Below, in pieces: positions 34,432 through 41,190 of a stretch of DNA of 43,250 bases. The notes under the pieces were generated by a model that searched no databases, was not told the DNA's origin, and was given only the letters and a program-made list of their open reading frames with translations. The stretch's first letter is position 1. The number at the start of each line of letters is the position of its first letter. The position numbers and the translations under genes were made by a program. Origin of the DNA: Nesterenkonia ebinurensis. Its GTDB lineage: Bacteria; Actinomycetota; Actinomycetes; Actinomycetales; Micrococcaceae. The stretch covers positions 1 to 43,250 of the forward strand of contig NZ_VWNF01000009.1 in assembly GCF_008711175.1 (NCBI RefSeq), read 5' to 3'.

Positions 34432-34528
34432 AGACCTCCTGTCCGAATCGGTGGCTGAACCGGATATCGCCTTCGATCATGTCGCGCATATCGGGCACGC
34501 CGTTGCGGAACATCAAGGTGCGCTCCAC
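34432..34528 (-). repeat. Direct repeat, original pheS 3' end (left island boundary)
   Basis: 97 bp identical at 96 positions to 40137-40233, in the same orientation. It encodes the last 32 residues of PheS (VERTLMF to HRFGQEV), followed by TGA, three bases and the pheT ATG. That native pheS-pheT spacing shows this is the original 3' end, now separated from the rest of pheS. Homology stops abruptly at 34529. The single difference (34442 T against 40147 C) is synonymous in a Gly codon. Confidence 0.95.
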
Positions 34529-34911
34529 TCGCACAGTAGGCAGAATTCCGGCTTCTCCTCGTTGACCGAGGCATGTCGTGAAAATCGCGCGCATCAACGC
34601 CGTAGCTGAGGGTACCCCGGGACCACAGTGTCGCCACGCTACTCGAAGTCCACGCACAGGGCTAGGCGCAAGAAATGTCATATCCACACACCTTACCCCT
34701 GGACAGCCGCTGGAGGTCGGCAACGCGTCGGGGTCAACTGCTCCGAGTGAATCGAGAGGACGGTTACATAGAGACAACAGCCAACTGACCCGCACCGCAC
34801 GGTCGTGACGACCTGTGCTGGACGTTGCAGGCACCCGAAAAATCACCATCGTCACGCGACAGCCAGGCCAAACATTGATCGTGAAAGATGCTTCCCATCA
34901 TCCAGTCACAG
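34529..34911. other. Island left end without a recognised gene
   Basis: About 380 bp between the left repeat and the regulatory region of the aldolase gene. Short open frames occur on both strands, among them one on the minus strand that runs in frame into the orphan PheS tail (from 34855), but none resembles a known protein. A promoter for pheT should lie here on the minus strand; I could not identify a convincing one. Confidence 0.5.
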
Positions 34912-34930
34912 TGATCATATTTCCCGATCA
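34912..34930 (+). promoter_or_regulatory. LysR-type operator (T-N11-A box)
   Basis: TGAT-N11-ATCA, extended to TGATC-N9-GATCA, matches the interrupted-palindrome T-N11-A box of LysR-type regulators. Its centre (about 34921) is roughly 65 bp upstream of the predicted start of transcription (about 34986), the usual place for the LysR recognition site. The island codes for one LysR regulator at its other end. Confidence 0.6.
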
Positions 34931-34950
34931 TTTGATAGCCCTAAATCAGC

Positions 34951-34979
34951 TTGACCGATTGCATGCAGAGGCCTAGCGT
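34951..34979 (+). promoter_or_regulatory. Promoter of rraA-like/tctCBA operon
   Basis: TTGACC (34951-34956), a 17-bp spacer and TAGCGT (34974-34979). Start expected near 34986, about 50 bp before the ATG at 35037. The weak -10 suits an activator-dependent promoter. Confidence 0.55.
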
Positions 34980-35036
34980 TACAACAGTGATCCCCGTCAC
35001 AGCTATCCCAACTGATTCCCCAACGAAAGGAACCAC

Positions 35037-35822
35037 ATGAGCACGCTTGAGCAAGAGTACGACGAGTACAACGAGGCTGGTCGAATCTGGGGCTTGGTGT
35101 CGAGGGAGCGCATCAAGAAGCTGAAATTTGATCGCCCCAACAAAAACATCATCGATAGATACCTCGCCGTGGGAGATCTCACCACAACGGTGTCTGACGT
35201 GCTAGACAGCCTGGGCGTCGTCGCTGCCGTACCAGCCACCGACCTCCCCCCACTTGCGCCTGGACAAAAGGTCGTAGGACCGGCTGTTACTTTGAGAAAC
35301 ATCGTTGAACGAAAGACGCCCACCAAAGGGTACTACGATAAAGATTTCATTAAGATGTCCACTCGAGACATTTACTATCTCTCAGAACCTGGAGACATTC
35401 TCGTCAGTGACACCGGTGGTGACACACAGGTGTCTAACATGGGTGGACAGTCCTGCACAGTCGCTCGATCTCGAGGTTTCGCCGGTGCAATCGTAAACGG
35501 GGCCATCCGAGACGCAACCACCATTCGGGAGATGGGCTATCCAGTCTGGAGCAAAGGCGCTACCCCAATAACAGGGAAGTTCAGAATTGAAGCGATCGAG
35601 ATCAATGGACCAGTGCAGATCAAGGATGTACGAGTGGAACCGGGTGACTTGATCGTCGCAGACGATTCGGGCATCTGTGTAGTTCCCTTTGAGCACATCA
35701 ACACAGTCATTGACGAGGTCGAGAAAATTGCTGCGGACGAGGAAGCGATGCGCGAACTCATCGTCTCCGAAGCGCCCCTTGACGAACTGCGCCCACTGTA
35801 CCGCAAGCGCTACACCGGGTAA
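35037..35822 (+). CDS. RraA-like aldolase (HMG/CHA aldolase family)
   Basis: 261 residues of the RraA/HMG-aldolase fold, some 30-50 longer than usual. Recognisable parts: DLTTTVSDVLDSLGV (about 47-61), GPAVTLRN, EPGDILVSDTGGDTQVSNMGGQ (about 117-138), RGFAGAIVNGAIRDATTIREMGYPVW (about 146-171) with the metal/substrate pair Arg158-Asp159, and VEPGDLIVADDSGICVVP (about 200-217). Such enzymes split 4-hydroxy-4-methyl-2-oxoglutarate or related keto-acids to pyruvate, often in aromatic acid breakdown; some relatives bind RNase E instead. The linked tricarboxylate transporter favours the metabolic role. GAAAGGA precedes ATG 35037. First gene of a four-gene operon. Confidence 0.85.
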   Translation: MSTLEQEYDEYNEAGRIWGLVSRERIKKLKFDRPNKNIIDRYLAVGDLTTTVSDVLDSLGVVAAVPATDLPPLAPGQKVVGPAVTLRNIVERKTPTKGYYDKDFIKMSTRDIYYLSEPGDILVSDTGGDTQVSNMGGQSCTVARSRGFAGAIVNGAIRDATTIREMGYPVWSKGATPITGKFRIEAIEINGPVQIKDVRVEPGDLIVADDSGICVVPFEHINTVIDEVEKIAADEEAMRELIVSEAPLDELRPLYRKRYTG

Positions 35823-39145: not shown

Positions 39146-39161
39146 TAATTGTCGACCGAAA

Positions 39162-39187
39162 AGTAACACATAATCTAATGTTTTACT
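39162..39187. terminator. Hairpin between convergent tctA and lysR
   Basis: AGTAA (39162-39166) pairs with TTACT (39183-39187), and ACAT with ATGT inside, giving an interrupted stem in the 58-bp gap between convergent genes. A bidirectional terminator is likely by position; the stem is AT-rich and weak. Confidence 0.4.
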
Positions 39188-39203
39188 GTCTAAGAGTGCA
39201 GCG

Positions 39204-40094
39204 TTACCCAATAATGCAAGCCGCCTGGTTCTTTGTTGATGCTACCAGTGACGCAATCGCATCACTGTAGTGCTCCTTGCGATAGACAATCTGAAGCGGT
39301 ATATCAAGTTTGTATCCCGTGGCGACTGCCCTTATATCACTTCGTTCTTCGTCTATGAAGAGGCGTGGATGCATGGCTATGCCAACTCCGGCACTGACGA
39401 GTGCGACTTGAGAATATATGTCTCCAGCTTCAACTACCTCTATCGGGTTCCAATAGTACGTTGAGAAGCTCGATAGAATTCTGTCGTAGAATTCGGGATT
39501 CCGCTTCCGGGGTGTCATGATGAGCGGCCAGTCCTGAAAATCTCCAATGTCGAAGCTCTCATTATCCCCTGCCAACTGATTCGATATTGCTAAGTGAAGT
39601 GGCTCATTAGCGAGAGGCTCAGATTGGAATCCCTCAGGCGGTTTCCTTGTTCGCAGTATTCCAAGATCAAGGTGTCCACCCCGAAGTGCGCGGACCTGAG
39701 CGTGCGACACCATAGCTTGCAGATTCACTCGCACTCGAGGAAACTTTTGGAGAGTATCTTGGAGAGCTCGCGGAACTAGCGCCCGCATTGCCGGATAAAC
39801 TGCTCCTACACGTAGTTGAGCGAGTCGTCCAGTGCCGATCGCACGAAGCTCAGTCTCGAGGTGCTCAGACTCGCTCAGCAGGGCTTCCCCACGTTCTAAT
39901 AGCAGGCGCCCAGCTTCTGTCAAGTGACTAGATCTTGTTGTTCTGACTATGAGAGTAGTGCCTAAGGCTTTCTCAATCCTCTTGACAGTTTCACTGAGTG
40001 TAGGCTGCGAGATGTGCAGTCGGTTAGCCGCACGTCGAAAGTTCAGTTCTTCGGCCAGTACTACATACTGCCCTATATCTTTTAACGTTAGCAT
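39204..40094 (-). CDS. LysR-family transcription regulator
   Basis: 296 residues. The N-terminal winged helix (about 1-60) has DIGQYVVLAEELNFRRAANRLHISQPTLSETVKRIEKALG in consecutive blocks, with the LysR linker helix after it. The C-terminal two-lobed ligand domain (about 90-290) has LRVGAVYPAMRALVPRAL and LVSAGVGIAMHPRL. By position and by the T-N11-A box in front of the rraA-like gene it probably activates the aldolase/transporter operon with a carboxylate as coinducer. It follows pheS by 40 bp on the same strand and may receive read-through from the pheS promoter. Confidence 0.92.
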   Translation of the reverse strand: MLTLKDIGQYVVLAEELNFRRAANRLHISQPTLSETVKRIEKALGTTLIVRTTRSSHLTEAGRLLLERGEALLSESEHLETELRAIGTGRLAQLRVGAVYPAMRALVPRALQDTLQKFPRVRVNLQAMVSHAQVRALRGGHLDLGILRTRKPPEGFQSEPLANEPLHLAISNQLAGDNESFDIGDFQDWPLIMTPRKRNPEFYDRILSSFSTYYWNPIEVVEAGDIYSQVALVSAGVGIAMHPRLFIDEERSDIRAVATGYKLDIPLQIVYRKEHYSDAIASLVASTKNQAACIIG

Positions 40095-40134
40095 CCCCGT
40101 CTCCGTTCTTCTGACAGTACATCCAGTTCTAGAG

Positions 40135-41190
40135 CTAGACCTCCTGCCCGAATCGGTGGCTGAACCGGATATCGCCTTCGATCATGTCGCGCATATCGGG
40201 CACGCCGTTGCGGAACATCAAGGTGCGCTCCACGCCCATGCCGAAGGCGAACCCGGTGTACTCCGGGTCCTTGATCCCGGCGGCGGCGAGCACATTGGGG
40301 TTGACCATGCCGCAGCCTCCCCACTCGACCCACCGGGGTCCGCCCTGGGCGCCCGGATCCCAGACATCCATCTCGGCACCGGGCTCGGTGAACGGGAAAT
40401 AGCTCGGGCGCAGCCGGATAGCGGCCTCGGGCCCGAACATCGCCCGGGCGAAGTGCTCCAGGGTGCCCTTCAGGTCAGCCATGGTCAGGCCCTTGTCCAC
40501 AGCCAAGCCCTCGAACTGGTGGAAGACCGGGGTGTGCGTGGCGTCCAGCTCATCGGTGCGGAAAGTCTTGCCGGGGCAGAGCACGTAGACCGGCAGCTCA
40601 CGCTCCAACAGGGAGCGGACCTGCACCGGGGAGGTATGGGTGCGCAGCACCAGGTGGGATTCCCGGGGCTCCACATAGAAGGTGTCCTGCATTTCCCGAG
40701 CCGGATGGTCGGGGTCGAAGTTCAGCGCATCGAAGTTGAACCACTCAGACTCCAGCTCAGGCCCCTCGGCGATCTCCCACCCCATGGCGGTGAACACATC
40801 GGCCACCCGCTCCTGCAGCACATTCAGCGGGTGCCGAGCACCCAGGGGACGACGCCGCGGGGCAGCGGTGACGTCCACCGTCTCCTCCACCAGCACCCGG
40901 GCGGCGTGTTCAGCCTCCAGCACCTCGGTACGGGCGGCCAGGCCTTGAAGGATCCGGCCGCGGGCGGTGCCCAGCAGCTTGCCGGCCTCCTTCTTCTGGT
41001 CCTTCTCCAGGTCCTTGATCTGCCGGTTGGCCAGCACTATGGGGGCCTTGTCCCCAGTGTGGGCAAGACGGGCCGCTTTGAGCTGCGCCAGGTCGTCGGC
41101 GGCGTCGAAATCTGCCAGGGCTGCCGCAACAGCCTGTTCAACGGCGGCCTCATCAAGCGGGTGCGGTGTCTCGGCGTGCGTAGTGGCCAT
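40135..41190 (-). CDS. pheS: Phenylalanyl-tRNA synthetase alpha subunit
   Basis: 351 residues, the usual PheS length. The N-terminal coiled coil (about 15-85) binds tRNA. The class II core has [21 protein letters not shown], motif 2 [20 protein letters not shown] (about 213-232) and motif 3 [14 protein letters not shown] (about 312-325). The last 32 residues, including the motif 3 Arg, come from the repeated segment 40137-40233. The stop is TAG from island sequence, unlike the original TGA at 34432-34430. PheS is intact, but pheT no longer follows. Start ATG 41190. The 179 bp upstream to the divergent glcD-like gene hold its promoter, not identified in detail. Confidence 0.97.
40137..40233 (-). 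repeat. Direct repeat, replacement pheS 3' end (right island boundary)
   Basis: Second copy of the 97-bp repeat, joined in frame to the body of pheS. It differs from the copy at 34432 by one synonymous base, which suggests it arrived with the island from another strain or species. Beyond its end (40136 leftwards) the sequence is island DNA with an immediate TAG. Confidence 0.95.

Follow-up and report, generated by a model that had tools for sequence, protein, structure and literature searches.

How can an essential, tightly packed gene pair be split by foreign DNA without loss of either gene? This question is raised by the pheS-pheT locus of Nesterenkonia ebinurensis, analyzed here in a window of 43,250 nucleotides (nt) that is one whole contig (C10; NZ_VWNF01000009.1) of a 3.74-Mb draft genome of 50 contigs, in which an insert encoding an RraA-like aldolase, a TctCBA transporter and a LysR regulator lies between the two genes (closest named PheS match: N. 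alkaliphila, 93%). The answer we tentatively favor, at slightly less than an even chance, is an integrase-free entry of this foreign RraA-TctCBA-LysR cassette at the pheS-pheT junction, duplicating 97 bp of the target (a long target duplication). The direct repeat that bounds the insert consists of the last 96 pheS coding bases and the first stop base, and its copies are identical at 96 of 97 positions, the sole mismatch lying at 34442. No other direct repeat of at least 40 nt was found in the window, and the genome held no further pheS tail beyond this pair. The repeat ends on the first stop base, and the stop codons differ, with TGA at the copy on the pheT side (copy A) and TAG in the pheS rebuilt by the other (copy B). 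An earlier note on this DNA had described a tail repeat around the insert with one mismatch and pheS regenerated, the cargo named above, and an AT-richer island; the repeat comparison and the Pfam matches (Table 1) agreed with the first two descriptions, and the GC content of the insert (0.526, against 0.645 in the window without it) agreed with the third. With third-position GC content of 0.47-0.61 in the insert genes versus 0.79-0.85 in five flanking genes, the insert is foreign by composition.

Every one of the other 29 Nesterenkonia genomes had the tail and its surroundings a single time, against two occurrences here, and pheT directly followed pheS in 28 of these 29 congeners, the exception being genome G006. 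As the junction is uninterrupted, with a single tail, in 28 of 29 relatives, the insert represents the derived state, and the uninterrupted pair with one tail copy that the earlier note had expected in related genomes was present in those 28. Outside the genus, the junction was intact in all 146 (120 + 26) of the 365 family genomes whose match coverage was displayed; the remaining 219 are represented by an E-value alone or by no match (G330, G353, and G357). Interruption in two of 30 genus genomes, this one included, gave a Fisher p of 0.028 against other genera (one of 29 without this genome), and a genus preference is not relied upon because our genome was picked for being interrupted.

At the mismatch site, copy A has T, as in 27 of the 29 congeners, with G in G006, A in one genome, and the C of copy B in none; TGA, the stop of copy A, was likewise found in 26 of the 29, and TAG in three. 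Copy A also continues into the native spacer and pheT. The native base, together with this continuity, identifies copy A as the resident end of pheS and copy B as the copy that adjoins the insert at its far side. Copy B diverges from copy A at 1 of 97 positions, against 3 in the nearest congener and 5 to 17 in the others, which suggests that the tail derives from the same lineage and not from an element attachment site (attP) with a long evolution of its own. Most simply, copy B would have received its tail recently from within this lineage, or gene conversion may have kept the copies alike.

The end of pheS also appears to serve pheT. A GGAGG motif was located within the last pheS codons in all 28 intact congeners, where the spacer from the pheS stop to the pheT start, as read by eye, was 2-7 nt and no candidate for an alternative ribosome-binding site fitted within it; both copies in our genome retain GGAGG. 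With this pheT motif inside pheS, any insertion leaving the overlap uncopied would harm either pheS or pheT, so that a viable insertion should duplicate the tail. We infer that selection kept such duplications.

In the long target duplication proposed here, a staggered break at the junction would have been filled in and joined to the incoming DNA, producing the 97-bp duplication, which would have been retained since both genes stay working. Its survival would be due to the short spacer and the position of the pheT ribosome-binding site inside pheS, which leave only tail-copying insertions functional. Long direct repeats of target sequence, single in all 29 congeners, surround the insert, as is typical of long target duplications, and the presence of a Ku gene in the genome makes a filled-in staggered break possible, although it is no proof. 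The earlier note had remarked on the absence of an integrase, and this held for both the five genes of the insert, whose proteins gave no Pfam match to an integrase or recombinase, and the six translated open frames of its left flank, which gave a single PHROGs match (E 0.34), located on the pheS tail. No DNA similar to the left flank (E ≤ 0.01) was found in the 29 other genus genomes, and no terminal inverted repeats were seen by eye in the 60 bases at either insert end. Collectively, the missing recombinase, the lack of a clear detached tail among the matches inspected, and the near-identity of the copies favor long target duplication; a site-specific recombinase as the cause is unproven and less likely than insertion without one.

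A second interrupted junction was found in G006, in which pheT is not within 1.5 kb of the pheS tail and a different 4.8-kb insert occupies the same place. This insert has an unremarkable GC content in its surroundings (0.618), and no integrase was found among the four predicted proteins scanned. On its pheT side, approximately 20 nt resemble the pheS tail, the two halves of the junction query overlapping by 19 positions; this match ranked second of 38,808 places, behind the real pheS end, and positions 10-28 of it alone were equalled or beaten by 0.17% of places. The pheT-side sequence is a probable degraded duplication of the pheS tail. GGAGG is kept at the pheT side, and the pheS side has GGAAG, as expected if each copy now serves one gene. 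Duplication lengths were thus 97 nt here and about 20 degraded nt in G006 (two cases, one uncertain), and different whole-gene cassettes lie between pheS and pheT in two species of the genus and in none of 28 others, a comparison of species rather than strains. A broader proposal, which we consider rather unlikely in its full form, is that the Nesterenkonia pheS-pheT junction takes small cassettes without a recombinase, the site being defined by the overlap of pheS codons with the pheT ribosome-binding site; survivors would copy the overlap, the copies would divide its work, in line with the motifs of G006, and tight junctions in general might show integrase-like repeats without an integrase.

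Table 1. Features of the interrupted pheS-pheT locus (window positions, unless a locus is named)
Feature	Coordinates	Strand	Remarks
pheT	31889..34426	-	whole; 5.7 kb from pheS; adjoins pheS in 28/29 congeners
Copy A	34432..34528	-	resident end of pheS, next to pheT; carries the native base (34442)
AGGAGGT in copy A	34434..34440	-	likely pheT ribosome-binding site (function inferred); GGAGG at equivalent place in 28/28 intact congeners
Insert	34529..40136		5608 bp, GC 0.526
Left flank	34529..35036		no recognized gene; would need to hold rraA and pheT promoters
RraA-like aldolase	35037..35822	+	PF03737
TctC, substrate-binding protein	35872..36864	+	PF03401
TctB	36908..37459	+	PF07331
TctA permease	37604..39145	+	PF01970
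LysR regulator	39204..40094	-	PF00126, PF03466; start 40 nt past rebuilt pheS stop
pheS	40135..41190	-	whole
Copy B	40137..40233	-	tail completing pheS; base absent from 29 congeners; stop TAG
G006 insert	L033 13133-17905		SARP-type regulator, 400-residue protein without Pfam match, DUF4870 protein

Within the insert, lysR is oriented in the same direction as pheS, with GGAG ahead of its start (39204-40136), and may be transcribed from pheS. One open frame in the insert, 141 codons long (34430-34855, minus strand), continues in frame into copy A, probably by chance.

Several observations weigh against long target duplication. For a filled-in break, 97 bp is a long repeat; the described cases, in the accessible text of their reports, carry restriction-modification genes, not transporters. 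The repeat ends exactly at the stop codon, and a synonymous base change and another stop codon set copy B apart, as in a gene-restoring attP. The mean tail residual of copy B was the lowest of 30 rows, a small deviation (-0.82 standard deviations over 97 bases and -1.33 over 30 bases). Eight tyrosine recombinase matches (seven over the cut-off) are present elsewhere in the genome and could act in trans. In addition, pheT is severed from the pheS promoter by the insertion and would need one of its own, an unexplained cost: a simple promoter scan of 34300-41400 found no promoter-like site for pheT and none on the minus strand of the left flank, the two sites that it returned (4.0 expected from shuffles) both being on the plus strand. 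Terminator-like sites in the same region numbered six, versus 5.0 expected.

The stop-codon boundary, the base and stop differences of copy B, and the recombinases elsewhere in the genome also support a serious rival, in which an integrative element whose attP carried the pheS 3′ end would have restored the gene with its own tail, its recombinase being deleted or acting in trans; we regard this as possible but somewhat unlikely. That another genome of the genus carries a different insert at this junction is in its favor, and protein-coding genes are known, in general terms, to be restored by some islands, according to the accessible text of one source (PMC12884075). Of the features of such islands, 3′-end direct repeats with the gene left whole were found here and an encoded serine or tyrosine integrase was not. 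No recombinase or remnant was recognized in either insert, the element and host tails are near-identical, and the G006 repeat measures only about 20 nt, all of which speak against an integrative element. Two of the tyrosine recombinase matches (G000:C22:370319-370819 and G000:C6:40759-41280) contain TGA stops and look broken.

An integrative element would also predict detached pheS tails, and these were not recognized in the matches inspected. Among the 394 other genomes of the family, the only candidate was a piece of 28 residues lying at the edge of a contig (G318). A second tail match was present in 46 family genomes besides this one, all but one weak (E 2.5e-6 or worse), and these weak matches probably represent another enzyme; at the order level, only G460 had a second pheS-tail match at E ≤ 1e-6, its place not being listed. 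Thirteen phage records matched the tail, of which the three inspected (H3, with a frame break, H4, and H15) showed pheS followed by pheT and two more were annotated as pheS. Matches were also obtained in 45 plasmid records, where the one inspected among the 15 listed was a whole pheST, and in three viral loci, where the two inspected contained whole pheS. The earlier note had suggested looking for the tail as a duplicated boundary in other actinobacteria and for integrase-bearing elements using it; no clear detached tail emerged from the family, order, phage, plasmid, and viral matches inspected. Its picture of an element that targets and restores the pheS 3′ end was accordingly upheld in part: an acquired insert does rebuild pheS, given 28 of 29 empty sites and the second insert in G006, but a site-specific element as the cause was not shown, with no recombinase match among the tested proteins of either insert and no clear detached tail in the matches inspected. 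Among the records matched, two filed as phage (L064, MT835497.1; L065, MT121966.1) hold bacterial pheST neighborhoods, which suggests that they are partly chromosomal or include prophage flanks, and a 250-kb Tsukamurella plasmid (plasmid 5; L067, NZ_LR134447.1) contains a complete pheS-pheT pair next to efflux genes.

Homologous recombination alone, which we judge improbable, would have brought the cassette in either on a circle with a pheS tail of the same lineage, by a single crossover, or from a cassette-bearing strain through crossovers in pheS and pheT; the latter route would explain the spread of the cassette, not its origin. Such donation is characteristic of minimal mobile elements, defined in the accessible text of two sources as cassettes between two conserved genes acquired by homologous recombination, and the Neisseria pheS/pheT locus is variable (PMC3082526 and PMC3898611). 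The genome encodes ComEC, which makes DNA uptake possible without proving it. A mobilizable Arthrobacter plasmid, pA58H3 (L068), carries the same five genes in the same order and orientation, which shows that this is a travelling cassette and does not identify the donor; protein identities were 69% for RraA and only 27% for TctC, 34% for TctA, and 43% for LysR, and these three low values indicate that pA58H3 was not the direct donor. The insert itself contains no plasmid backbone, a search of the plasmid collection with it returned two records with weak partial matches, and no plasmid there covered 80% of the insert. Nor did identity change in any obvious step within pheS or pheT beside the insert, the comparison being with G003 rather than with strains of the same species. 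No relative of RraA was found at E ≤ 1e-60 in the 394 other family genomes; the nearest RraA proteins elsewhere were 72-74% identical, the named ones being actinobacterial and including one from an Arthrobacter of the same family, and a scan of named genomes returned three distant relatives (31-33%).

A false assembly join of a foreign contig at the pheS-pheT junction, which the 50-contig draft and the strongly different composition of the insert might suggest, is very improbable: it would take two wrong joins at a single site, one base and the stop codon distinguish the repeat copies, the flanking DNA is intact and syntenic on either side, and the genome scored 98.65% complete and 1.08% contaminated.

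Our preferred reading, long target duplication, would mean that an essential, tightly packed gene pair can be split without loss by duplicating the stretch that serves both genes. Should the selection argument apply generally, some presumed attachment-site repeats could be survivors of chance insertions at overlapping junctions, and integrase-less islands need not have lost an integrase. The term insertion with long target duplication (Nobusato et al. 2000) goes back to two Helicobacter strains (PMC1643837), and long, variable duplications around restriction-modification genes have been described (PMC3031569; also PMC4978471). As far as the accessible text of these reports extends, the likeness lies in an insert between long, target-derived direct repeats that is found by comparing related genomes. 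The known cases concern restriction-modification genes, mainly in Helicobacter, whereas here a transporter/aldolase cassette in an actinobacterium duplicates the tail of an essential gene; the restriction-modification link, absent here, is presented in that text as an association and not as a strict requirement.

Saunders and Snyder reportedly counted pheS/pheT among the minimal mobile elements in 2002. In Neisseria, the content of the pheS/pheT locus, with a type II restriction-modification system, varies by strain (PMC3082526), and NmeDI sits between the two genes (PMC7973814). Judging from the available portions of these papers, that locus shares with ours the same two genes, variable cassettes, and no need for an integrase, and differs in its restriction-modification cargo. 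A Pseudomonas defense hotspot lies near pheS and pheT, although the accessible text does not show it to be between them (PMC10250203). The remark of the earlier note that it knew of no described element of this kind at pheS therefore requires correction as regards the locus; for actinobacteria, our literature search, covering sources in part and claiming no absence from print, found none.

Gene-restoring insertions form a third kind, exemplified at icd by e14 and phage 21. Gene-restoring islands, as described in the partial source cited above, have in common with our insert a repeated gene 3′ end and a gene rebuilt by the incoming copy, but no integrase is encoded here and the tails are identical at all but 1 of 97 positions. 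The pA58H3 cassette matches ours in its five genes, their order, and their orientation, but is plasmid-borne and mostly divergent. The insert at pheS-pheT shares features with long target duplications, minimal mobile elements, and gene-restoring islands, without being seen to have all the defining features of any of them. As both pheS/pheT as a landing place and insertions with long duplications are already known, the actinobacterial case looks less like a novel type of element than like a new variant among known kinds of insertion, and it extends pheS/pheT cassette exchange from Neisseria to actinobacteria.

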